From Hymenobacter sp. DG25B (GTDB lineage: Bacteria; Bacteroidota; Bacteroidia; Cytophagales; Hymenobacteraceae): a stretch of DNA of 64,000 bases. Below, piece by piece: positions 41,768 through 53,394 of the stretch; position 1 is the stretch's first letter; the number at the start of each line of letters is the position of its first letter. The translations under genes were made by a program, and so were the position numbers. The stretch covers positions 1,178,001 to 1,242,000 of the forward strand of contig NZ_CP010054.1 in NCBI RefSeq assembly GCF_000801315.1, in the 5' to 3' direction. The notes under the pieces were generated by a model that was given only the letters and a program-made list of their open reading frames with translations, made no database searches and was not told the origin of the DNA.

Positions 41768-42712
41768 TTACTTCAGCAGCTCATGTAGCACGGTTTGCAT
41801 GGAAAATACCCGGTTCCCGGCCTCCTGTATCACCAGGGAGTTAGGCGAATCCAGAATAGCATCCGATACTTCCACGTTGCGGCGCACGGGCAGGCAATGT
41901 AGAAATTTAGCGTGGTTGGTGCCGGCCATGTGCTCGGGCGTCAGCATCCACGCGGGGTCGTTGCTGATGACCTGGCCGTAGTTCTGGTAGCTGCTCCAGT
42001 TCTTAGCCTGCACGAAGTCGGCCCCTTCCAGCGCCTTTTTCTGGTCGTACTCAATGCGGGCGCCTTTCGTGAATCTGGGGTCCAGTTCGTAGCCCTCAGG
42101 GTGGGTGATGACGAAGTCCACCCAGTCTACTTCCGAGAACCAGTCGCAGAAGGAGTTGGGCACGCACTGGGGTAGGGCCCGCACGTGTGGGGCCCAAGTC
42201 AGCACCACTTTCACGCGCTCTTTCTGCTTGTGCTCGGCTACCGTAATCAGGTCGGCGAAGCTTTGCAGCGGGTGCAGCGTGGCGCTTTCCAGGCTTACCA
42301 CGGGCACGGTGGCGTACTTCAGAATCTTGTTGAAGACTTCCTCGCTGTAGTCGGCCTCGCGGTCCTTGAGCGTGGGGAAGGTGCGCACGCCCAGCACGTC
42401 GCAGTACTGGCTCATTACGGCAATGGCCTCCTTAATGTGCTCCTGGGTGCCGCCGTTCATCACCGCGCCATCGGCCATTTCCAGGGTCCAGGAATCGGCC
42501 CCGGCGTTGAGCACCCAGGCCTGCGCGCCCAGGTTGTAGGCCGCCTTCACCGAGCTAAGCCGGGTGCGCAGGCTGGGGTTGAAGAAAATCAGCCCCACAG
42601 TCTTATTCCTGCCGATGTGCTGGTAGCCAAACGGATTCGCCTTTATTTCCAGAGCTTGCTGCAACAGGGCTTTATAGTCGCCCGCATCGGCGAAAGAGGT
42701 GAAGTTTTTCAT
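41768..42712 (-). CDS. argF': N-acylornithine carbamoyltransferase (ArgF')
   Basis: Transfers carbamoyl from carbamoyl phosphate to N-acetyl- or N-succinylornithine, the fifth step of this arginine route. It is of the Xanthomonas/Bacteroides type, 314 aa. The carbamoyl-phosphate site is FFNPSLRTR (about 43-51). The C-terminal HCLPVRRNVEVSDAI and WSSYQNYG segments match the family. The residue that distinguishes acetyl (Glu92 in Xanthomonas) from succinyl (Pro90 in Bacteroides fragilis) aligns with Q90 here, within GGTQEHI. Which donor is used is therefore open. It is the last gene of the leftward arg/car run, supplied by carAB just upstream. Confidence 0.9.
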   Translation of the reverse strand: MKNFTSFADAGDYKALLQQALEIKANPFGYQHIGRNKTVGLIFFNPSLRTRLSSVKAAYNLGAQAWVLNAGADSWTLEMADGAVMNGGTQEHIKEAIAVMSQYCDVLGVRTFPTLKDREADYSEEVFNKILKYATVPVVSLESATLHPLQSFADLITVAEHKQKERVKVVLTWAPHVRALPQCVPNSFCDWFSEVDWVDFVITHPEGYELDPRFTKGARIEYDQKKALEGADFVQAKNWSSYQNYGQVISNDPAWMLTPEHMAGTNHAKFLHCLPVRRNVEVSDAILDSPNSLVIQEAGNRVFSMQTVLHELLK

Positions 42713-42757
42713 TTGGTATGGTGTAGCGCAAAGTGCAATTCTTATGCTCTTACGCTT

Positions 42758-43123
42758 TTAATTATCTGTAAAAATGGTGTCGCTACGAAAGATATTCCAG
42801 TCATTATTTGACTGCTTTCGCGCCACACCTTCAATTAATACTGCTGCCTTTTCACCTTTCAACTTGATTGAAAACTGCAGAGAATCACGCTCTAAGTTTT
42901 GCTTTTCGAAACTATATTCTTCAGAAAATATATCTCCTGTTCTACTCAATATGCGGCCTGATACCTTGGCATTATTGACAGCATTCTGAATAACATCAGG
43001 AGTCTGGGTGATTATGTACAGATGTGTAGCTTTTGAAAAAGCAAAGGCGAAAAGACAAAACCCTAAGAAAGACAGTAGAGCTTTTCCCCGGTTTTTCTTA
43101 AAAAAGCTGATTGCCTCTTTCAT
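42758..43123 (-). CDS. Small membrane protein inserted in the arg/car operon
   Basis: A 121-residue hypothetical protein between carB and argF', on the same strand. One hydrophobic helix is at about residues 14-38 (KALLSFLGFCLFAFAFSKATHLYIIT); the rest is a soluble domain with ILSRTGDIFSEEYSFEKQNLE and SLQFSIKLKGEKAAVLIEGVARKQ. Base composition is visibly more AT-rich than the flanking arg genes. No named domain; ATG 43123 is preferred to 43168. The insertion inside a conserved pathway cluster suggests recent acquisition. Confidence 0.65.
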   Translation of the reverse strand: MKEAISFFKKNRGKALLSFLGFCLFAFAFSKATHLYIITQTPDVIQNAVNNAKVSGRILSRTGDIFSEEYSFEKQNLERDSLQFSIKLKGEKAAVLIEGVARKQSNNDWNIFRSDTIFTDN

Positions 43124-43200
43124 AATATTGTCACTGCTATAATGTGATTTAAAGCTCAGAAAAGTCACGATGAGTATGACGTTCCTGAGCTTTAAAGTAA

Positions 43201-46200
43201 TTACATGGCTTTATACTCCTTCCAGCTCTTGATCTTCAGATCCTTCATCTCCAGCGTGCAGAAAGCCTGAATAAAGGCCTTGGCCAGCCGCGCATTGGTC
43301 AGCAGCGGAATGCCGAAGTCCACGGCCGTGCGGCGGATGCGGTAGTCGTTGTCCAGCTCACCCTTGCTCAGGTTCTTGGGGATGTTGAGCACCAGCTCGA
43401 TTTGCTTCTCCTTCAGATACGTCAGCACGTTGGGCTCCTGCCGCTCGTCGGGCCAGAAGACCAGCGTGCTGGGCACCTGGTGCTCGGCCAGGAAGCGGTG
43501 CGTGCCCGCTGTGGCGTAGAGCGCGAAGCCGTGCTGCACCAGCAGGCGGGCCGAGTCCAGCAGCGCCACCTTCGAGAGCAGCGGGCCGCTGGAGAGCAGC
43601 ACCGTTTTCTGCGGAATCTTATAGCCCACCGAGAGCATGGCCTTGAGCAGCGCTTCCTCGGCCGTGTCGCCCAGGCAGCCCACCTCGCCGGTGGAGGTCA
43701 TGTCCACGCGCAGCACCGGGTCGGCGCCGGGCAGGCGGGTGAAGGAGAACTGCGGGGCCTTTACCCCCACGAAGGGCAGATCGTAGACCAGCTCGCTGGC
43801 GTCGCGCGTCACTTTCTTCCCCAGCAGTACCTGGGTGGCCTTCTGGATCAGGTTGTGGCCCGAGACCTTGCTCACGAAGGGGAAGGAGCGGGAGGCGCGG
43901 ATGTTGCACTCAATCACCCGGATTTCGCGGTTTTTCTCCAGAAACTGGATGTTGAAGGGCCCGCTGATTTCAAAGCGCTTGGCAATCTTCTCGGCAATGA
44001 TCTTGAGCTTGCGCACCGTGCCCACGTACACGCGCTGGGGCGGGTAGTACATGGTCGCGTCGCCGGAGTGCACGCCGGCAAACTCCACGTGCTCGGAAAT
44101 GGCGTAGCTCACGATTTCGCCCCGGTCGGCCACGGCGTCCAGCTCAATTTCCTTGGCCTCCTGGATGAACTCGGAGACCACCACCGGGTATTCGGCACTG
44201 ACTTCCTTCGCAGCTTTGAGGAATTCTTCCAGCTCGAAGGCATTGGACACCACGTTCATGGCCGCCCCCGACAGCACGTAGCTGGGCCGGATCAGCACGG
44301 GGTAGCCCACCTCATTTACGAAGTCGAACATGGCTTCCAGCGAGGTGAGCTCCTGCCAGCGGGGCTGGGCAATGCCCAGCTCATCGAGGATAGAGGAGAA
44401 CTTGTGGCGGTTTTCCGCCTGGTCAATCATGGCCGCCGAGGTGCCCAGGATGGGCGCCTTGGCCTCGGCCAGGCGGGTGGCCAGGTTGTTGGGAATCTGC
44501 CCGCCCGTGGAGAGAATCACCCCGCCCGGCTGTTCAAAGTCCAGAATGTCCAGCACCCGCTCGAAGCTCAGCTCCTCGAAGTAGAGCCGGTCCGAGACGT
44601 CGTAGTCGGTGGAGACGGTTTCGGGGTTGTAGTTGATGATAATCGTCTTGTAACCCTCGGCCGCGGCCGTCTGCACGGCCTGCACGCCGCACCAGTCAAA
44701 CTCCACGGAGGAGCCGATGCGGTACACGCCCGAGCCCAGCACCATGACGGACTTATCAGTTTCCGGCGCTAAATCATGTTCCGTGCCGTGGTAGGTGGTG
44801 TAGAGGTAGTTGGTCTGGGCCGGGAACTCGGCCGCCAGCGTGTCAATCTGCTTGATGACGGGCAGCACGCCCAGGGCTTTGCGGCGGGCGCGTACCCGCA
44901 GCTCGTCGGCCTTCACGTCGCCTTCCCCCAGCAGCTGCACGGCAATCTGCTGGTCGGAAAAGCCAGCTTTTTTGACGTCGCGCAATAGCGCGGTGTCCAG
45001 CCCGTCGAGGCCGCCGTTGGTACGGCCTTCGGCAAGCTTTTGGCCTAACTGGAAAATGGTATATAAGCGCTGCAGAAACCACAAGTCGATTTTGGTCAGC
45101 TCATGGACCTGCTGGATGCTGTAGCCGGCCTCAAAGGCCAGATTGATAGCGAAGATGCGCTCCTCGTTGGGCTCGCGCAGCAGCTGGTCGATGGCGGCGT
45201 TATCCAGCTCGTCCTCGGCCCGGTTGGCCACAAAGCCGCGCTTGCCCGTGTCGAGCATGCGCAGGCCCTTCTGAATGGCTTCCTCAAAGCTTTTGCCGAT
45301 GGCCATCACCTCGCCCACGCTCTTCATGGCCGAGCCGATCTGCCGGTTCACGCCCGCGAACTTGCCCAGATCCCAGCGCGGCAGCTTGACCACCACGTAG
45401 TCCAGGGCCGGCTCAAAGAAGGCCGAGGTGGTCTGCGTCACGCTGTTTTTCAGCTCGGCCAGTGAGTAGCCCAGACTCAGCTTGGCGGCCACGAAGGCCA
45501 AGGGGTAGCCCGTGGCCTTGGAGGCCAGGGCCGAGGAGCGCGAGAGGCGCGCATTCACTTCAATGACGCGGTAGTCCTCGGATTTCGGGTCCAGCGCATA
45601 CTGAATGTTGCACTCGCCCACGATGCCCAGGTGGCGGATGGTCTGAATGCCGAGGCGGCGCAGCTTGTGGTACTCCCGGTTGCTCAGCGTCTGCGACGGC
45701 GCTACTACGATGCTCTCCCCGGTGTGGATGCCGATGGGGTCGAAGTTCTCCATGTTGCAGACCGTGATGCAGTTGTCGTAGGCATCGCGCACCACTTCGT
45801 ACTCCACTTCCTTCCAGCCCTTCAGCGACTCCTCCACCAGAATCTGGTCCGAGGTGGTGAAGGCCTTCTGGGCCAGGGCCCGCAGCTCGTCGAAGTTGTT
45901 GGCAAAGCCGCTGCCCAGCCCGCCCAGCGCAAAGGCGGCCCGCACGATGATGGGAAAGCCGATTTTTTCGGCGGCGGCCAGCGCGTCGTCCAGCGTGGTG
46001 ACGGCCACGCTGCGGGCCGAGAGCACACCAATCTGCCCGAGCTTCTCCTTGAAGATATCCCGGTCCTCCGTGTCGATGATGCTCTGCACGGGCGTGCCCA
46101 GCACCTGCACGTTATACTTGTCGAACACGCCGGCGCGGTACAGGGCCACGGCGCAGTTCAGGGCCGTCTGCCCGCCGAAGGCCACCAGAATGCCGTCGGG

Positions 46201-46437
46201 CTGCTCCTTTTTGATGACTTCCTCCACGAAGTAGGGCGTCACGGGCAGAAAGTACACGTCGTCGGCCAGGCCCTCGGAGGTCTGCACGGTGGCGATGTTG
46301 GGGTTGATCAGGAGGGTGCGGATGCCTTCCTCTTTCAGGGCCTTGAGCGCCTGCGAGCCGGAGTAGTCGAACTCGCCGGCCTCGCCGATTTTCAGCGCGC
46401 CGGAACCAAGGATCAGGACTTTCGTGGGTTTGTTCAT
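43201..46437 (-). CDS. carB: Carbamoyl-phosphate synthase large subunit
   Basis: Makes carbamoyl phosphate from bicarbonate, ammonia (from CarA) and two ATP for arginine and pyrimidine synthesis. 1078 residues, with the full duplicated architecture: the first ATP-grasp half starts VLILGSGALKIGEAGEFDYSG and has IVRAAFALGGLGSGF; the second starts VMVLGSGVYRIGSSVEFDW and has LIRPSYVLSGAAMNVV; the C-terminal allosteric domain has SVGYKIP, LLVQHGFALYATAGT, VLNIPKNLS and DYRIRRTAVDFGIPLLTN. The start is ATG 46437. It follows carA in the leftward cluster and precedes argF', so its product is made next to its consumer. Confidence 0.96.
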   Translation of the reverse strand: MNKPTKVLILGSGALKIGEAGEFDYSGSQALKALKEEGIRTLLINPNIATVQTSEGLADDVYFLPVTPYFVEEVIKKEQPDGILVAFGGQTALNCAVALYRAGVFDKYNVQVLGTPVQSIIDTEDRDIFKEKLGQIGVLSARSVAVTTLDDALAAAEKIGFPIIVRAAFALGGLGSGFANNFDELRALAQKAFTTSDQILVEESLKGWKEVEYEVVRDAYDNCITVCNMENFDPIGIHTGESIVVAPSQTLSNREYHKLRRLGIQTIRHLGIVGECNIQYALDPKSEDYRVIEVNARLSRSSALASKATGYPLAFVAAKLSLGYSLAELKNSVTQTTSAFFEPALDYVVVKLPRWDLGKFAGVNRQIGSAMKSVGEVMAIGKSFEEAIQKGLRMLDTGKRGFVANRAEDELDNAAIDQLLREPNEERIFAINLAFEAGYSIQQVHELTKIDLWFLQRLYTIFQLGQKLAEGRTNGGLDGLDTALLRDVKKAGFSDQQIAVQLLGEGDVKADELRVRARRKALGVLPVIKQIDTLAAEFPAQTNYLYTTYHGTEHDLAPETDKSVMVLGSGVYRIGSSVEFDWCGVQAVQTAAAEGYKTIIINYNPETVSTDYDVSDRLYFEELSFERVLDILDFEQPGGVILSTGGQIPNNLATRLAEAKAPILGTSAAMIDQAENRHKFSSILDELGIAQPRWQELTSLEAMFDFVNEVGYPVLIRPSYVLSGAAMNVVSNAFELEEFLKAAKEVSAEYPVVVSEFIQEAKEIELDAVADRGEIVSYAISEHVEFAGVHSGDATMYYPPQRVYVGTVRKLKIIAEKIAKRFEISGPFNIQFLEKNREIRVIECNIRASRSFPFVSKVSGHNLIQKATQVLLGKKVTRDASELVYDLPFVGVKAPQFSFTRLPGADPVLRVDMTSTGEVGCLGDTAEEALLKAMLSVGYKIPQKTVLLSSGPLLSKVALLDSARLLVQHGFALYATAGTHRFLAEHQVPSTLVFWPDERQEPNVLTYLKEKQIELVLNIPKNLSKGELDNDYRIRRTAVDFGIPLLTNARLAKAFIQAFCTLEMKDLKIKSWKEYKAM

Positions 46438-46502
46438 GCGAAGGGTTGGGTAACAGACCACCAGGGATGGTCGTGTTAGAAAGGCAGACGGGTTAACAGT
46501 GA

Positions 46503-46594
46503 GTTATGCCGAGCGCAGCGAAGCATCTTTACCTCGGGAGTAAGCAGATTGGCTCAACGCAGCGGGCAAGATGCTTCGACGAGCTCCGCATGAC
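46503..46594. repeat. Hairpin repeat between carA and carB
   Basis: GTTATGCCGAGCGCAGCGAAG-like left arm pairs with the right arm CTTCGACGAGCTCCGCATGAC through 27 nt with a few mismatches (total 92 bp). The shared words GAAGCATCTT/AAGATGCTTC recur at 2555-2748 and 36470. It separates the carA and carB genes. Confidence 0.65.
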
Positions 46595-46602
46595 GGGCTT
46601 AT

Positions 46603-47688
46603 TTACTTTGGCTGAGCAGCCTTATACTCTGCTACTGCCGTCAAAAAGTCATCGAACAGAAACTCCGTATCCTGGGGGCCGCCGGCGGCTTCAGGGTGGA
46701 ACTGGGTGGAGAAGAACGGTTTCGACACGTGCCGGATGCCTTCGCAGGTGCCGTCGTTCAGGTTCTCGAACAGCACGCGCCACTCGGCCGGCAGCGTTTT
46801 AGGGTCGACGGCGAAGCCGTGGTTCTGGCTGGTGATGTAGCAGCGCTGCGTGCCGGTCAGCCTGACGGGCTGGTTGTGGCTGCGGTGGCCGTACTTGAGC
46901 TTAAACGTGTCCCCGCCCGCGGCCAGGCCCATGAGCTGAGAGCCCAGGCAGATGCCGAAAATGGGCTTGTCCTGCTGCAGGGCTTGCTGCAGGTGGGCAA
47001 TGGTGGCCTGGCACATCTTCGGGTCGCCCGGGCCGTTGCTCAGGAACAGGCCATCGTATTCCAGGGTGGTGAAATCGTAGTCCCAGGGCACGCGGATGAG
47101 CGCCACGTCGCGCTCGAGAAAGCAGCGGATGATGTTGGTCTTGGTGCCGCAGTCCACCAGCACGATTTTGTGCTGGCCGTGGCCGTAGCGGGTGACCTCC
47201 GTGGGGCTGACCTGGGCCACCAGGTTGTCCAGGTTGGGGTCGTGGAAGGGCACATCTTCCTTGGCTACAATTTTGCCCAGCATGGCACCCTTCTCGCGCA
47301 GCTTCTTGGTGAGCATCCGGGTGTCCACACCGAAGATGCCGGGAATGTTATACTCCTGCAGCCAGTCACCCAGGCTTTTGGCCGCGTTCCAGTGGCTGTG
47401 CTCCTGGGAGTAGTAATTGACCACCAGGCCGGCAATGTGCACCTTGTCCGACTCGAAGATCCGGGAAATCGACTCGTAGAGCTCCTCGCCGGGCACACCG
47501 TAGTTGCCCACCATGGGGTAGGTGAGCACCAGGATCTGGCCGGCAAAGGAGGGGTCGGTCAGGTTTTCCGGGTAGCCCGTCATGGCCGTGCTGAACACGA
47601 CCTCGCCGGCGGCGGAGGTAAAGGCGCCGAACGATTGGCCCTCGAGTTCGGTGCCGTCTTCCAGAATGAGTTTTACTGTTTGGGTCAT
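46603..47688 (-). CDS. carA: Carbamoyl-phosphate synthase small subunit (glutamine amidotransferase)
   Basis: Supplies ammonia to CarB by hydrolysing glutamine. 361 residues. The N-terminal domain (LILEDGTELEGQSFGAFTSAAGEVVFSTAMTGYPENLTDPSFAGQIL) precedes a class I amidotransferase with catalytic Cys in FGICLGSQLMGLA, where Ser replaces the His usual after CLG, and His/Glu in FHPEAAGGPQD. TSQNHGFAVD is present. The start is ATG 47688. The carAB pair is separated by a 92-bp hairpin repeat, so the two may be unequally expressed. Confidence 0.94.
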   Translation of the reverse strand: MTQTVKLILEDGTELEGQSFGAFTSAAGEVVFSTAMTGYPENLTDPSFAGQILVLTYPMVGNYGVPGEELYESISRIFESDKVHIAGLVVNYYSQEHSHWNAAKSLGDWLQEYNIPGIFGVDTRMLTKKLREKGAMLGKIVAKEDVPFHDPNLDNLVAQVSPTEVTRYGHGQHKIVLVDCGTKTNIIRCFLERDVALIRVPWDYDFTTLEYDGLFLSNGPGDPKMCQATIAHLQQALQQDKPIFGICLGSQLMGLAAGGDTFKLKYGHRSHNQPVRLTGTQRCYITSQNHGFAVDPKTLPAEWRVLFENLNDGTCEGIRHVSKPFFSTQFHPEAAGGPQDTEFLFDDFLTAVAEYKAAQPK

Positions 47689-47736
47689 CAATAGATGGAA
47701 ATTCTTCGTGGTGGTAGCCGGTGTGAGGCTATTCAA

Positions 47737-47886
47737 TTCCCCTCCTCAGCTGAGGAGGGGTGCCCGAAGGGCGGGGTGGTTGACAATCGTTGAATAACTT
47801 TTAGCATTAGCTCTAAAAATCGTTCTGCCGTTTCAACCACCCCTAACCCCTCCTCAGCTGAGGAGGGGAACTAGTTTTTAGCTCTA
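47737..47886. repeat. Large inverted-repeat element, copy 2
   Basis: TTCCCCTCCTCAGCTGAGG and GGTGGTTGA on the left face CCTCAGCTGAGGAGGGGAA and TCAACCACC on the right. The right outer end is AGTTTTTAGCTCTA, i.e. TAGAGCTAAAAACT read leftward, and its first triplet is the TAG stop of argD. The left copy has an interrupted GGGTGCCCGAAGGG segment absent from the other copies. It lies between carA and argD. Confidence 0.88.
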
Positions 47887-49047
47887 ATCCAGTGCCGAAG
47901 CCTGCGAAATTGCTTCTACTGATTTCTCGGTCAGTGCATACAGCGCCTGCAGGAAACGGTCAACCTCAGCCTTGGTGATATTCAACGGCGGCAGCAAGCG
48001 CAGCACCGTAGGGTCGGAGGCGTTGCCTACGAAGATGTGGTAGTCCGAGAGCAACTTGTCGCGCACATCTTTGATGGGGAAATCGTACTTGATGCCCACC
48101 ATCAGGCCGCGGCCGCGGATTTCTTCAGCACCGGCATTGGCTTCCAGCTCCGTGCGGAGGTAGTGGCCCATTTCGGTGGCGTGAGCCAGTAGGTTTTCCT
48201 GCTCAATAACTTCCAGAACGGCCAGCGCAGCGGCGCAGGCCAAGTGGTTGCCGCCGAATGTGGTGCCCAGCAGGCCGTAGGAGGCTTTCAGCTCCGGCGC
48301 AATCAGGATGCCGCCGATGGGGAAGCCGTTGCCCATGCCTTTTGCTACCGAAATAACATCGGGCCGGATGCCGACGTACTGATGCGCGAAGAACTTGCCG
48401 CTACGGCCGTAGCCGCTCTGCACTTCATCAGCAATCAGCAGCGCGCCATATTGCTTACACAGTGCGGCCAGGCCCTGCAGGAACTCATCGGAAGGCATAA
48501 TAATGCCGCCCACACCCTGAATCGGCTCGATGATGGCCGCACAAACGTCGCCGCCCTGCAGCACCTGCTCTACTGCCGCCAGGTCATATTCCACGAAGGA
48601 AATGGCGTGGTCAGCGTTGAAAGGCGCTACAATTTTGGGGTTATCAGTAGCGGCCACTGCGCCAGACGTACGGCCGTGGAAAGCGCCTTTAAAGGCGACT
48701 ACACGCTTCTTGCCGGTGTGGAAGGACGCCAGTTTCAGGGCGTTTTCGTTGGCCTCAGCCCCGGAGTTGCACAGGAACAGCGAGTAGTCCTCATAGCCCG
48801 ATACCTTACCCAGCTTCTGGGCTAGCTCGCGCTGAATCGGAATCTGCACAGAGTTGGAGTAGAAGCCAATGTTCTGCAACTGCTCGGTGAGGCGCTGCAC
48901 GTAGTGCGGGTGGCTGTGGCCAATGGAAATCACGGCGTGGCCACCGTAGAAATCCAGGTATTCCTGGCCCTTATCGTCCCAGAGTTTCGCGCCCAGCGCC
49001 TTTACCGGCGTGATGTTGACGAGTGGATATACGTTGAAAAGCTCCAT
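47884..49047 (-). CDS. argD: Acetylornithine (N-acylornithine) aminotransferase
   Basis: PLP enzyme of class III that transfers the amino group from glutamate to N-acylglutamate semialdehyde. 387 residues. PLP-phosphate contact SGAEANENALKLA (96-108), cofactor-binding D207 in LLIADEVQSGYGRSG and Schiff-base K236 in SVAKGMGNGFPIGG. Its stop codon is in the outer end of an inverted-repeat element, so the last one or two residues could have been altered. It is downstream of argC in the leftward run, with a hairpin repeat between. The acyl group (acetyl or succinyl) cannot be read from this sequence. Confidence 0.94.
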   Translation of the reverse strand: MELFNVYPLVNITPVKALGAKLWDDKGQEYLDFYGGHAVISIGHSHPHYVQRLTEQLQNIGFYSNSVQIPIQRELAQKLGKVSGYEDYSLFLCNSGAEANENALKLASFHTGKKRVVAFKGAFHGRTSGAVAATDNPKIVAPFNADHAISFVEYDLAAVEQVLQGGDVCAAIIEPIQGVGGIIMPSDEFLQGLAALCKQYGALLIADEVQSGYGRSGKFFAHQYVGIRPDVISVAKGMGNGFPIGGILIAPELKASYGLLGTTFGGNHLACAAALAVLEVIEQENLLAHATEMGHYLRTELEANAGAEEIRGRGLMVGIKYDFPIKDVRDKLLSDYHIFVGNASDPTVLRLLPPLNITKAEVDRFLQALYALTEKSVEAISQASALD

Positions 49048-49116
49048 AGTATAGAAGTGAGAGCTGAGAGCTGAGAGGTTAGAACTTAGAGGCAGTCGTC
49101 AGAAATCAGAAAAAGA

Positions 49117-49216
49117 ACGTCATTCCGAGCGCAGCCGAGGAATCTCGCGTGCTGATGTTGCAGTAGTAATCCGGACGTCAGCACGCGAGATTCCTCGGCT
49201 GCGCTCGGAATGACGT
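49117..49216. repeat. 100-bp perfect hairpin repeat between argC and argD
   Basis: The left arm 49117-49155 (ACGTCATTCCGAGCGCAGCCG and on to CGTGCTGA) is an exact reverse complement of the right arm ending at 49216, about 39 bp with a 20-bp loop. It is transcribed in the leftward operon and would fold into a very stable hairpin. Confidence 0.88.
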
Positions 49217-49224
49217 ATAGTGGG

Positions 49225-50205
49225 TTAGAACAGTCCTGCTTTCAAATTCAAGCCCGTCGTTTCGGGCAGGCCGAAGAGCAGGTTCATATTCTGGATTGCC
49301 TGGCCGGAAGCGCCTTTCACCAGATTGTCAATAACCGAGGTGATAAGCAGCTGCTTGCCGAATTTCTGCACGTGCAGCAGGCACTTGTTGGTGTTGACCA
49401 CCTGCTTCAAATGAATTTCCTTGTCCGAAACCGTGGTGAACGGTGCATCGGCGTAGAACTTCTGGTACAGCGCCCGCGCCTCTTCCTGCGTCAGGTCCGA
49501 CGGTGTATAAACGCTGGCGAAAATGCCGCGTGAGAAGTTGCCGCGGTAGGGAATGAAGTGGATGTCCAGGTCCAGCGGCGTCTGCAGCTGCGCCAGGCTC
49601 TCCCCAATTTCGCTGAGGTGCTGGTGGGTGAAGGGCTTGTAGATGGACACATTATTCGTGCGCCACGAGAAGTGCACCGTCTCCGACAAGCTCTGCCCCG
49701 CACCCGTGGAGCCCGTAATAGCCGACACATGCACATCATCCGTCAGCTTACCGGCCTGCGCCAGCGGCAGCAAGGCCAGCTGAATGGCCGTAGCAAAGCA
49801 GCCGGGGTTGGCAATGCTCTGGGCCTGCTGTATGCGGCTTTTATTCAGCTCCGGCAGCCCGTACACAAACTCGCGGCCCGCAAACTCGGCGTCGGCTTCC
49901 AGGCGGAAGTCGTTGCTCAGGTCGATGATGTGGGTAGTTTCCGGCAGCTCGTGCTTTTCCAGCCACGCTTTGGAGTTACCGTGGCCCAGGCATAGAAATA
50001 CCACGTCCTCATCACCCACCAGCTCCGAGGCAAATACTAGGTCGGTTTCGCCCACCAGATCATCGTGCACCTGATACACGGGGTTACCGGCATTAGATGA
50101 ACTCACGATACCGCCCAGCTCCACAAATTCGTGGTGCAGCAGAATACGGATCAGCTCCCCGGCGGTATAGCCGGCGCCGCCCACGATGCCAACCTTAATT
50201 TTCAT
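49225..50205 (-). CDS. argC: N-acetyl(acyl)-gamma-glutamyl-phosphate reductase
   Basis: Reduces N-acylglutamyl-phosphate to the semialdehyde with NADPH. 326 residues. NADP site VGIVGGAGYTAGELIRILL (5-24), LCLGHGNSKAWL, catalytic C136 in IANPGCFATAIQL and the STGAGQSLSE, HFIPYRGNFSRGIFASVY regions. Its start overlaps the argG stop by 11 bp (50195-50205), predicting coupled translation. Confidence 0.95.
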   Translation of the reverse strand: MKIKVGIVGGAGYTAGELIRILLHHEFVELGGIVSSSNAGNPVYQVHDDLVGETDLVFASELVGDEDVVFLCLGHGNSKAWLEKHELPETTHIIDLSNDFRLEADAEFAGREFVYGLPELNKSRIQQAQSIANPGCFATAIQLALLPLAQAGKLTDDVHVSAITGSTGAGQSLSETVHFSWRTNNVSIYKPFTHQHLSEIGESLAQLQTPLDLDIHFIPYRGNFSRGIFASVYTPSDLTQEEARALYQKFYADAPFTTVSDKEIHLKQVVNTNKCLLHVQKFGKQLLITSVIDNLVKGASGQAIQNMNLLFGLPETTGLNLKAGLF

Positions 50206-51382
50206 CGTTGAAAGAGGAGTGAATCCGCAGCTGATTGCTGAAGATTTTGATGAAGCCTTTGGCGTCGCGGCCGTCCCAGGCGTCGTTTTCTTCGCCGTAG
50301 GTAGCCACTTTGGAGCGCATCATGTCGTACTTCGACTCGATGCCCTGCAGCTCGAACTGATACGGTTTCAGGGTCACGAACACCTTACCCGATACCCGCT
50401 CCTGCGACGAAGTGAGGAAGGCCTCGAAGTCGCGCATTACCGGGTCGAGGTACTGGGCCTCGTGCAGCAGCGTGCCGTACCAGTTGGCCACATAGTCCTT
50501 GTGCAGCAGCTGCCAGCGCGAGGAGGTGTGCTTTTCCAGCAGGTGGTGGGCTTTCAGCAGAATCAGCGGGGCCGGAGCTTCGAAGCCGACGCGGCCTTTG
50601 ATGCCCAGAATGGTGTCGCCCACGTGCGTGTCGCGGCCAATGGCGTAGGTGCCGGCCAGCTCATTCAGCGCCTGAATCAGCGCTACCGGGTCCATCAATT
50701 CACCGTTCAGGGCCACCGGCTCGCCTTTTTCAAAGGTGATTTCAATGCTGGCAGGCTCGGTTTCGCTGATCTGGGTGGGGTAGGCAGATTCGGGCAGGGC
50801 CTGGTTGGAGGTAAGTGTTTCTACGCCACCCACGCTGGTGCCCCAGATACCCTTGTTGATGGAGTATTTGGCCTTTTCCCAGCTCATCTCGAAGCCGTGT
50901 TGGTTCAGGAAGTCAATTTCCGCCTGGCGCGAGAGTTTCAGGTCGCGTATAGGGGTAATGATTTCCGTGTTGGGGGAAATCACGGAGAAAGCCACGTCGA
51001 AACGCACTTGGTCGTTGCCGGCGCCGGTGCTGCCGTGGGCAATGTAGTCGGCCTGGTGCTCCCGGGCGTACTCGGCCAGGGCCAGCGACTGGAACATGCG
51101 CTCCGCGCTGACACTCAGCGGATAGGTGTCGTTTTTCAGCACATTGCCGAAAATGAGGTAGCGCAGGCAGTCGTGGTAGAAACGCTGGGTCACGTCAATC
51201 ACCTCGTGCTTGGAGGAGCCCAGCTCGTAGGCCCGCTTCTCGATGGCGGCCAGCTCTTCCTCGGAAAAGCCGCCGGAGTTGACGATAACCGTGTGCACCT
51301 CCAGACCCAGCTCGCGGGTGAGGTACACAGCGCAGAAAGACGTATCCAAACCGCCGCTGTAGGCGAGAACTACCTTTTTCAT
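50195..51382 (-). CDS. argG: Argininosuccinate synthase
   Basis: Condenses citrulline (or its released form) and aspartate with ATP to argininosuccinate. 395 residues. The PP-loop is YSGGLDTSFCAVYL at the N-terminus, followed by DVTQRFYHDCLRYLIFGN, AHGSTGAGNDQVRF and the ITPIRDLKLSR segment. This is a normal-length ArgG. It starts at 51382, the same base where the GNAT gene stop begins (TAATG-type overlap), and its own stop overlaps argC, so GNAT-argG-argC form a tightly coupled set. Confidence 0.95.
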   Translation of the reverse strand: MKKVVLAYSGGLDTSFCAVYLTRELGLEVHTVIVNSGGFSEEELAAIEKRAYELGSSKHEVIDVTQRFYHDCLRYLIFGNVLKNDTYPLSVSAERMFQSLALAEYAREHQADYIAHGSTGAGNDQVRFDVAFSVISPNTEIITPIRDLKLSRQAEIDFLNQHGFEMSWEKAKYSINKGIWGTSVGGVETLTSNQALPESAYPTQISETEPASIEITFEKGEPVALNGELMDPVALIQALNELAGTYAIGRDTHVGDTILGIKGRVGFEAPAPLILLKAHHLLEKHTSSRWQLLHKDYVANWYGTLLHEAQYLDPVMRDFEAFLTSSQERVSGKVFVTLKPYQFELQGIESKYDMMRSKVATYGEENDAWDGRDAKGFIKIFSNQLRIHSSFNDEN

Positions 51383-51966
51383 TAGTGCTGTTGAGGTTCT
51401 TCGATGAAGTTGATGGTTTCCTGGGGCTGCTGGGCGTACTGGTCGTTGAGGTTATCGTAGACCATGCCCGTGCACAGGCACATTTTGCGGTTGTTGTCCT
51501 GCAGAATCTGGTAGTTTTTGCAGCTGGCGCAGCCTTTCCAGAAGTCGTCGCTCTGGGTCAGGTCCTGGAACGTAACGGGGCGGTAGCCCAGCTCGCTGTT
51601 GATTTTCATCACAGGCCCGCTGGTAGTGATACCGAAGATCTTGGCCTGCGGGTACTTGGTGCGCGAAAGCTCAAACACGCGGTGCTTGATGGCGCGGCCC
51701 AGGCCTTCCTTCCGCAGATCGGTGTTCACAATCAGACCCGAGTTGACGACAAATTTGTTGTCCTCAAAGGTCTCGATATAGCAGAAGCCGGCCAGCTGGT
51801 CGTCCAGAAAGGCAATGATGGCGTCGCCGCGTTCCATCTTCTTAATCAGATAGTTGGGGTCGCGCTTGGCGATGCCCACGCCCCGTTGCTTGGCCGACTG
51901 CTCGTACCATTGACAAAGCGTTTCCACATACTGCGCGTCGGCAGCATTCGCAACTCGTAGAATCAT
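51382..51966 (-). CDS. GNAT-family N-acyltransferase of the arginine operon (probable glutamate N-acyltransferase)
   Basis: A 194-residue GNAT enzyme at the head of the leftward arg run, in the place where the first pathway enzyme (N-acetyl/N-succinylglutamate synthase) is expected. Acetyl-CoA-binding motif LRKEGLGRAI (about 84-93), preceded by FVVNSGLIVNTD and followed by IFGITTSGPVMKINSELGYRPVTF. A C-terminal cysteine cluster CASCKNYQ...CLC (C146, C149, C163, C165) could bind a metal, unusual for a glutamate acetyltransferase. ATG 51966 is used; the frame extends upstream to 52071 but has no conserved sequence. It overlaps the argG start by one base. Confidence 0.85.
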   Translation of the reverse strand: MILRVANAADAQYVETLCQWYEQSAKQRGVGIAKRDPNYLIKKMERGDAIIAFLDDQLAGFCYIETFEDNKFVVNSGLIVNTDLRKEGLGRAIKHRVFELSRTKYPQAKIFGITTSGPVMKINSELGYRPVTFQDLTQSDDFWKGCASCKNYQILQDNNRKMCLCTGMVYDNLNDQYAQQPQETINFIEEPQQH

Positions 51967-52240
51967 GGGAAAAGTGACGATGGGGCCTATCCGGACAGGA
52001 AACGGCAGAAAGTCGGGGAGGGGAAGTAGCAGATGCACGGGGCAAACCGCCCGCAGACGGAGTTGCCGCAACCGCTTCTCGGGAGAAGCAGTATTCCGGG
52101 GAATGTGCCAGAAAAAAGGAGGATGGCAGAGCGGAGACGCGCGTTAGCGTCGCGCCAGGCGGGGACATACTTTCACCCGCAGTGGAAACATACTCTTAGG
52201 CCTACACTCGTGTCAGTCAGTTGTCGTGGATTTCTCTTTG
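51967..52240 (-). promoter_or_regulatory. Upstream region of the leftward arg run
   Basis: The left 270 bp of the 645-bp divergent spacer between the GNAT and argB genes. No clear ArgR-type palindrome was found. A GACGC/GCGTC stem lies at 52135-52150. TTTCACC- and CATACT-type words here may contain promoters, but I could not assign one. Confidence 0.4.
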
Positions 52241-52480
52241 GTTAGCCCCGCTTTACGTGCGCGGGCTTCGTCGGTTGGCAGTTCGCAGTGGAACGCAGAC
52301 GAGGTATTGCAAGCCAGCGGTTAAGCTGGCATTATTCGCACCAGTAAGGTGGTACGACGCGTAAGTGCAATAAAAGAGAGACGAATCATGACAAGTACCA
52401 GTACCGCAGCGCGGTGGATGGGTTTCTGCGGTCTAAAATGCGTTAGACCCTGAAATCGTTGCAAAACTAGACGTTTTTTT
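52241..52480 (+). ncRNA. Candidate structured leader RNA upstream of argB
   Basis: Sequential pairings, read rightward: GCCCCGC 52245-51 with GCGGGC 52261-66; TTCGTC 52267-72 with GACGAG 52298-303, enclosing GTTC 52281-84 with GAAC 52291-94; TATTGC 52305-10 with GCAATA 52367-72, enclosing GCCAGC 52313-18 with GCTGGC 52325-30 and CACC 52339-42 with GGTG 52348-51; CCGCAG 52404-09 with CTGCGG 52426-31; GTCTAA 52431-36 with TTAGAC 52443-48. A T-run follows (52473-52481). ATTCG 52334-38 and CGAAT 52382-86 could add a pseudoknot, GGTAC/GTACC an alternative fold. A 21-codon ORF (52388-52453, ATG after AGAGAG) overlaps the last stems and may be a leader peptide. No known riboswitch matched. Confidence 0.4.
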
Positions 52481-52611
52481 TCGGAAACTTTGCTGGATCA
52501 ATCCAAAAAAAATGCGCGGCCAGTAAAATATTATACTGACGTCGGTTCTCGTTTTAAATAGAAATTTGGGCGTTTTGGTGCCGTGTGTGCCCTTTTTCTT
52601 TCCCCTCAATA

Positions 52612-53394
52612 ATGAGTAACATCCTGAAAATATTCAAGATTGGTGGCGGTATCATCGATGATGAGCAACAGCTGCGCCTTTTCCTGGCCGAGCTGGCGCA
52701 GGTGCCCGAACAAAAGATTCTGGTGCACGGCGGCGGCAAAGGAGCCAGCCAGATGCTCACCGATCTGGGCATTGCGCCGAAGATGGTGCAGGGCCGCCGC
52801 ATTACCGATGCCGCCACGCTGGATATCGTTACCATGTTCTATGCCGGCAAAACCAACAAGCAGGTAGTGGCCCTGCTCCAAAGTTTTGGGGTAGATGCGC
52901 TGGGCTTGTCCGGGGCCGATGGCAACGCCATCCGGGCCACCAGGCGCCCGGTCAAGGAAATCGATTACGGATTTGTGGGGGATTTGCCCCTGGACAGCAT
53001 CAACACCGTGCTGGTAAATCAGTTGCTGCGCGCCGGCCTCATGCCCGTGTTCTGCGCCATTACCCACGACGGGCAGGGCCAATTGCTGAACACCAACGCC
53101 GATACCATTGCCAGCACTCTGGCCCGCGCCCTAGCCGATTTGTACGAAGTAGAGCTGCACTTCTGCTTCGAGAAAGACGGCGTGCTGGCCGATATCAACG
53201 ATGAGCAATCCGTCATTCCGCGCATCACAGCGGAGCAGTATCAGCAGCTGAAAGCCGAAGGCATTATTGCGGCCGGCATGGTGCCCAAGCTCGATAACGC
53301 CTTTGCCGCGCTGGAAGCTGGCGTGGAGCGCGTGGTCATTGAAAATGCGCTGAAGATCAACGAGCCTATAAAGACCATTCTATGCCAGCAGTAA
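52612..53394 (+). CDS. argB: Acetylglutamate kinase
   Basis: Phosphorylates N-acetyl(acyl)glutamate with ATP, the second pathway step. 260 residues, amino acid kinase fold: FKIGGGIIDDEQQL (N-terminal K and GGG), VHGGGKGASQMLTDLGI, TDAATLDIVTMFYAGKTNKQVVALL, LSGADGNAIRA, PVFCAITHDGQGQLLNTNADTIAST and GMVPKLDNAFAALEAGVERVVI. ATG 52612 is preferred to 52585. It begins the rightward run, overlapping the next gene, and is separated from the divergent GNAT gene by the candidate structured RNA region. Confidence 0.95.
   Translation: MSNILKIFKIGGGIIDDEQQLRLFLAELAQVPEQKILVHGGGKGASQMLTDLGIAPKMVQGRRITDAATLDIVTMFYAGKTNKQVVALLQSFGVDALGLSGADGNAIRATRRPVKEIDYGFVGDLPLDSINTVLVNQLLRAGLMPVFCAITHDGQGQLLNTNADTIASTLARALADLYEVELHFCFEKDGVLADINDEQSVIPRITAEQYQQLKAEGIIAAGMVPKLDNAFAALEAGVERVVIENALKINEPIKTILCQQ

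Follow-up and report, generated by a model that had tools for sequence, protein, structure and literature searches.

An arginine-codon leader ORF conserved on the minus strand between divergent arginine gene clusters of Hymenobacter, with a proposed attenuation mechanism

Arginine biosynthesis in many well-studied bacteria is governed by the ArgR system. ArgR (Pfam PF01316) was found in none of 99 Cytophagales genomes, including that of Hymenobacter sp. DG25B, and the control search was positive in nine of 14 known genomes (eight of the nine over the cut-off, with a Bacteroides among the positives). How such a bacterium might adjust its arginine genes to arginine supply is the question raised by positions 52241-52480 of the window, by which the whole 64,000-nucleotide stretch of DG25B DNA analysed here is meant. 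An earlier note had placed at these positions a possible new structured RNA, by its suggestion a riboswitch, attenuator or leader-peptide device, heading the rightward arginine operon. A conserved element is present there, between two divergent arginine gene clusters. It is best read as an arginine leader, genuine and conserved, that runs on the other strand from the one suggested, and the last step of its mechanism is put forward here as a proposal.

The locus and its leader ORF

All 47 loci tested have both GNAT and argB on one stretch, and wherever positions were listed the two genes flank the element on its two sides, so that the region sits between divergent arginine clusters. The rightward side consists of argB, an argE-like gene and argH. 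The leftward cluster (Table 1) would form one operon, GNAT-argG-argC-argD-carA-carB-argF, in which two genes are what we take to be carB and an argF-like carbamoyltransferase, named from their sequence and not by a family search. The GNAT protein has weak similarity to known acetyltransferase families (Pfam PF00583 falls just below its cut-off), adjoins argG in many genomes of the order and is perhaps an unrecognised N-acetylglutamate synthase.

The element is narrowly distributed. A DNA search of 149 relatives returned 42 matches, the own genome among them, all from the same genus, and an exact pattern taken from the conserved block matches 26 genome records, all Hymenobacter. R1, a covariance model of the core built from 30 sequences, matched 59 of the 248 genomes searched strongly (E 3.1e-25 or better) and once each, comprising 57 genomes of the own genus (DG25B included) and two of the sister genus g50. 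These are referred to as type A. An order-level draw of 390 genomes held no strong R1 match outside the family (best E 7.4e-4), and the R1 hits beyond the family, at E 7e-4 or worse, look like AT-rich chance matches; one of them (L090) was inspected. One g50 genome, G190, has no ArgB match that could be found and is not among the leader-match genomes, unlike some of its g50 sisters.

Table 1. Features of the leader region and of the leftward cluster (window coordinates; A1 and A4 are alignments)
Feature	Position	Strand	Remark
argG, argC, argD, carA, carB, small ORF, argF-like carbamoyltransferase	41768..51382	minus	Rest of leftward cluster
GNAT acetyltransferase	51382..51966	minus	First gene of the leftward operon presumed to be controlled; argG next
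CGAGTGTA (TACACTCG on plus)	52203..52210	minus	Invariant in A1 and A4; downstream of P1 in minus transcript
Helix P1, 52223-52239 with 52373-52391	52223..52391	minus	Two A4 helices, 87 and 93% of cells paired
GC-rich hairpin P2, downstream of leader ORF	52245..52266	minus	
Helix P4, 52305-52310 with 52367-52372	52305..52372	minus	3 of 6 pairs changed on both sides
Hairpin P5 (GCCAGC/GCTGGC), leader stop TAA in loop	52313..52330	minus	
Leader peptide ORF, 22 codons + TAA, MIRLSFIALTRRTTLLVRIMPA	52389..52321	minus	Shared length, shared stop column, pN/pS
Arg codon 18 (CGA)	52336..52338	minus	Arg in 59/59
Tandem Arg codons 11-12, CGT CGT here, mostly CGA CGA in relatives	52354..52359	minus	
Hairpin P7, upstream of leader start	52403..52415	minus	
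Hairpin or palindrome P8, near predicted 5' end of minus transcript	52426..52450	minus	
Candidate -7 box TAGTTTTG (TAnnTTTG match)	52462..52469	minus	Box consensus from Flavobacterium psychrophilum
AT-rich spacer of nearly constant length (T-run) + GGAAACTTT	52470..52491	.	DNA-level element

The centre of the element is a minus-strand ORF upstream of the leftward GNAT-argG operon. All 59 homologs (49 distinct DNA sequences, 40 distinct peptides) are exactly 22 codons long and end in PA-stop. When 47 aligned rows were scanned for shared start and stop columns, this one minus-strand ORF was found in every row with a single stop column; its start falls in two neighbouring columns (35 and 12 rows), and the stretch leading to its stop is open over at least 34 codons in all 47. 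The best open stretch before any other stop common to at least 45 of the rows is seven codons on the plus strand and three on the minus strand. The leader frame also has the lowest pN/pS of the six (0.588, against 0.733-1.322 for the remaining five). The earlier note had missed this ORF and drawn attention to a 21-codon plus-strand ORF with an ATG behind AGAGAG, which does exist in the window and is not maintained among homologs: in 25 of 47 rows, the window's own row being among the 47, its ATG opens an ORF at least seven codons long that stops before the alignment ends, the stops fall in several columns, and the other rows have no ATG there or run off the alignment end.

The commonest form of the peptide is M[IT]xLSSIALLRRPxLVVR[IT]MPA. 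Every homolog has Arg12 and Arg18; 48 of the 59 have Arg11 and 26 have Arg3. The 11 that have no tandem RR carry Leu, Pro or Gln at codon 11. The leaders write arginine mostly as CGA (153 of 204 codons), whereas 13 genes of the window use it for 5 of their 383 arginines; base pairing in P6 could account for part of this bias. The window's own leader has CGT at codons 3, 11 and 12 and CGA at codon 18.

The promoter is placed by likeness to a relative. In F. psychrophilum a TAnnTTTG box is reported to lie at -12 to -5 of transcription start sites (PMC9723704). The match TAGTTTTG would put the start of the minus transcript near 52457; no canonical or good -33 box was seen with it in type A.

Arginine codons, sister clades and attenuation

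Sixteen genomes of the genus that have no R1 match share the same divergent gene pair. Fifteen of these genomes (L092-L106), with L111 added, supply the 16 loci called type B (L112, whose GNAT is not on its stretch, was left out), and R1 gave no convincing match in them. At the same site they carry a minus-strand ORF, chosen by a filter for RR, that ends in RRP-stop in 15 of the 16 (ERRL-stop in L098), with 33-34 residues in 13 and a longer form, through an upstream ATG, in two. By eye, the arrangement TTG-N20-TAnnTTTG stands on the minus strand in the same place as the type A box. Most type B loci also show GCAAAGGTA-8-TACTTTTGC, that is, two outward-facing TAnnTTTG boxes shortly before argB. 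The same RR filter picked a mini-ORF, MMRRRV-stop, in G026 (L091), the one genome of the first sixteen outside type B, which has no type A match though its ArgB is nearer to type A (73% identity), and ORFs of yet another sequence in four g50 genomes, where MLRRP lies inside a longer ORF in two and MLRRF and QPRRLL occur in one each. Four g50 genomes (L107-L110) also retain TACACTCG, followed by a different downstream sequence.

Twenty-seven loci from 26 genomes of other genera and families were scanned for arginine-rich, leader-like ORFs upstream of GNAT. Such ORFs end in P[VL]RA-stop in four of four g49 loci, in TRSRR- or TRPRR-stop in four of four of g51, in NIRR-stop behind a TTG start in both of g47, and in RxRP-stop in three of five of g48; G093 and G103 are single cases, with PVRRP-stop and RRRA-stop respectively. 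Several of the 27 loci have no leader candidate, and some of the arginine-rich hits are surely due to chance. The filter required arginines, so the evidence lies in recurrence within a genus and not in any single hit. The replacement of the leader in sister clades by ORFs of unrelated sequence with arginine-rich ends would make a good case for the study of attenuator evolution.

As in a ribosome-mediated attenuator, a conserved short ORF lies ahead of the operon's first gene, behind a predicted promoter, and carries codons for the operon's end product that are repeated or rare. The position of the leader, its arginine codons and the missing repressor together point to attenuation by arginine supply. 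It is likely, with good though not complete confidence, that the element serves the leftward arginine operon as its leader and works by ribosome-mediated arginine attenuation; the leader would then probably let this bacterium tune its main arginine operon. The idea of an arginine leader peptide or attenuator in the earlier note was a good one, although it had the strand, the ORF and the controlled operon wrong: the conserved ORF leads into GNAT-argG, not into argB-argE-argH.

We infer the stalling, the direction of the response and the role of Rho in the following scheme. A minus transcript starting near 52457 would carry the leader ORF within a three-way junction and run on through GNAT-argG-argC-argD-carA-carB-argF. 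Were charged tRNA-Arg scarce, the ribosome would stall within the second half of the ORF, on its arginine codons, and keep the downstream leader covered or refolded, and RNA polymerase would read through. With arginine plentiful, the ribosome would finish the ORF and expose the C-rich untranslated leader, and transcription would stop early, most likely by Rho. In type A an arginine codon stands at position 18 of 22, and type B leaders, like the ORFs that recur in other genera, have theirs close to the ORF end; stalled there, a ribosome would therefore shield the start of the stretch between leader stop and GNAT, which in turn predicts read-through at low arginine and termination at high arginine. 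In that stretch C outnumbers G at all 50 loci measured (20 of the 59 type A, 15 type B and 15 of the 27 others, with the wrong ORF used in L020 and L030), a composition that may suit Rho-dependent termination.

Other outputs were considered. A scan of the window found no minus-strand intrinsic terminator, and no terminator/antiterminator pair was found at the leader. Control of GNAT translation through the position of the ribosome was rejected, as folds constrained by a ribosome footprint had no effect on access to the GNAT start in 21 loci of 20 genomes (means 0.53-0.54 over four states: no ribosome, or one whose footprint lies on the leader start, on Arg12 or on the stop). Toggling of the hairpin after the type B leader was rejected in the same way. 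Its mean probability across states is 0.86, 0.85 and 0.84 (15 loci); L105 and L106 have values close to 0 throughout, with a single 0.27, and in L104 it falls from 0.95 to 0.70. Given that ArgR was found in none of the 99 Cytophagales genomes, a leader with arginine codons ahead of the main arginine operon offers a concrete and testable answer to how arginine is sensed.

The scheme above senses arginine through its tRNA. Alternatively, the nascent peptide and the ribosome might together bind free arginine or a relative of it, so that arrest at termination, as in TnaC or SpeFL and not codon starvation, would set expression, with peptide forms such as RRP-stop, RxRP-stop or LRRPxLVVR. We regard this as rather unlikely. 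It would account for a conservation that extends well beyond the arginine codons (LSSIALLRRPxLVVRxMPA in most homologs), for the RP-stop of the type B and g48 leaders, which resembles Arg23-Pro24-stop of TnaC (PMC8429421), and for the codon choice of the 15 leaders measured in other genera, where AGG, CGC and CGT are used more than CGA. Against it, type A ends in PA-stop and not RP-stop, and the Hymenobacter leaders strongly prefer the codon CGA itself, a preference that fits tRNA sensing. In its broadest form this alternative would make a fast-evolving family of arrest peptides, each in its own RNA junction, the main arginine sensor of the ArgR-less Cytophagales, which seems doubtful. Equally speculative is the corollary that RRP-stop, RxRP-stop, RSRR-stop, PVRA-stop and LRRPxLVVRxMPA are forms of it whose sequence has become unrecognisable between genera with sensing kept.

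Helices, strand and neighbouring DNA elements

The hairpins and the T-run that first drew attention to 52241-52480 are present in the sequence, and with homologs the fold is significant. The consensus fold of 26 of the 59 sequences, compared with 100 column-shuffled alignments, has an energy z of -11.7 on the plus strand and -10.3 on the minus strand. Among 58 distinct rows, in an alignment fitted to the structure, 12 of 32 pairs have both partners changed, and 500 shuffles never came as high on any of the five measures used. A sequence-based alignment of 47 rows that includes P1 has 17 of 49 pairs with both partners changed; none of 500 shuffles did as well on four of the measures, and 26 of the 500 did on the remaining one. 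The window sequence alone (plus strand, 52200-52500, 301 nt) gives a z of -0.67, with 21 of 100 shuffles equally good.

The helices are real and covarying, but they overlap and surround the leader ORF. The P1 strand at 52373-52391 contains the leader start codon and codons 2-6, and five P1 pairs have changes on both sides (A4). P4, P5 and P6 meet in a three-way junction that P4 closes and that encloses leader codons 6-22, and both P1 and P4 pair leader codons with downstream sequence. All six pairs of P5 are identical in the 58 distinct rows (A3). The DNA of P8 is itself palindromic (GCGGTTTAAATCGTTTAAACCGC in several species); P8 has many unpaired changes and could be the DNA operator of some regulator instead of an RNA hairpin.

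The strand was not assigned from wobble pairs, because the counts conflict between helices and P7 is misaligned in A4. Wobbles in P1 favour the plus strand (64 G-U against 8 A-C cells; 19 against 6 events), as do those in P8 by cells (48 against 12), and P4, P6 and P7 show no plus preference. Over all helices, in counts that include the misaligned P7, parsimony gives 31 G-U against 39 A-C events on the protein tree and 30 against 28 on a second tree. The consensus fold of the 26 sequences favours plus, whereas single-sequence folds of 28 of the 59 favour minus (mean z -4.1 against -3.3); the type B consensus fold also gives minus a slightly better value (z -4.4 against -3.6; 15 sequences, L098 left out).

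It is very improbable that the element is a plus-strand structured RNA, a riboswitch or attenuator in the argB leader. The lean of the P1 and P8 wobbles, the stronger consensus fold on plus and the upstream TACACTCG, which could be a promoter box, would fit such an RNA. The wobble events over all helices are about even, however, single-sequence folds favour the minus strand, neither the plus ORF nor the T-run is kept, and the conserved TTAA, together with such words as CTCTCTTC and CGACGACC, is accounted for by minus-strand coding. The CACC/GGTG hairpin proposed for the plus strand (52339-52342 with 52348-52351) turns into mismatches on the plus strand in the two nearest relatives; read from the minus strand, the changed letters would pair as G-U. 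The statement that no known riboswitch is recognisable holds good: the window has no Rfam match at the gathering score, and at E up to 10 the region 51960-52700 yields just three chance matches and no T-box. A metabolite-binding riboswitch, as had been suggested, is not needed for the data and nothing was found in its support, although the nascent peptide itself might sense a ligand. The choice of strand matters, in that a coding leader can resemble structured RNA on the opposite strand.

Nor does the T-run behave as a terminator. An A-rich stretch (AAAAATTT or AAAATTTT) replaces it in two species (G008 and G087), and an intrinsic terminator was rejected on this ground; a spacer in a DNA element is likelier. 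The block CGTTGCAAnnnTA-(AT-rich)-GGAAACTTT at 52453-52491 is strongly conserved even where the T-run is lost, with GGAAACTTT in 58 of 59 homologs and GAAACTTT in the remaining one (L051), and is possibly a bidirectional promoter or operator between both arginine operons.

That the element is a standalone small RNA, or a small protein with its own function, is scarcely credible: it is compact, has a structure of its own and gives one strong match per genome in 59 genomes, but GNAT and argB are on its stretch in the 47 loci tested, on either side of it where positions were listed, sister clades carry very different ORFs with arginine codons in its place, and G190, with no ArgB found, is not among the matches.

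Comparison with known systems

The reading preferred here, an arginine attenuator on the minus strand, can be set beside several known leaders. In the hisL, trpL and leuL attenuators a leader ORF precedes the biosynthetic operon and contains codons for the amino acid that the operon makes. The Hymenobacter leader has the same layout of end-product codons, but no terminator/antiterminator pair was found with it. A classic attenuator is not known for arginine biosynthesis. The likeness to a T-box is confined to the word TACGACGCG on the plus strand, already taken for a mere look-alike; it is the complement of Thr-Arg-Arg codons, sits within the minus-strand Thr-Arg-Arg-Thr codons ACG CGT CGT ACC, and differs from a T-box in having no Rfam match.

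In the open-licence literature, no arginine biosynthesis leader of this kind was found among the matches listed, nor any Hymenobacter riboswitch paper or any paper on leader attenuation of arginine biosynthesis in Bacteroidetes; the accessible portion of PMC4833913 does not mention arginine. The kind of control proposed is nevertheless already known in the phylum, since transcription start maps of F. psychrophilum are reported to give clues for leader-peptide attenuation before amino-acid operons (PMC9723704). Phylum and idea are shared; the order is another, and arginine is not named in the passage concerned.

Two leaders from other bacteria come closer in their peptides. TnaC, the leader of the E. 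coli tryptophanase operon, ends in Arg-Pro-stop beside a Rho site (PMC8429421), much as the type B leaders end in RRP-stop; it senses free tryptophan and induces a catabolic operon, whereas here a biosynthetic operon stands behind arginine codons. The speF leader of Salmonella and E. coli contains a short ORF (orf34/SpeFL) with two consecutive arginine codons in a long leader, and its control depends on arginine and involves Rho, with no intrinsic terminator found (PMC6386406). The window peptide has RRT in common with the SpeFL core HIRRT*HIM quoted in that paper. Eight leader peptides matched no Pfam family at E up to 10, the SpeFL family (PF10940, the accession quoted in PMC6386406) included, although peptides as short as these may escape the filters. 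The two leaders also differ in what follows them: the speF leader controls ornithine decarboxylase in gamma-proteobacteria, and the Hymenobacter leader precedes arginine biosynthesis.
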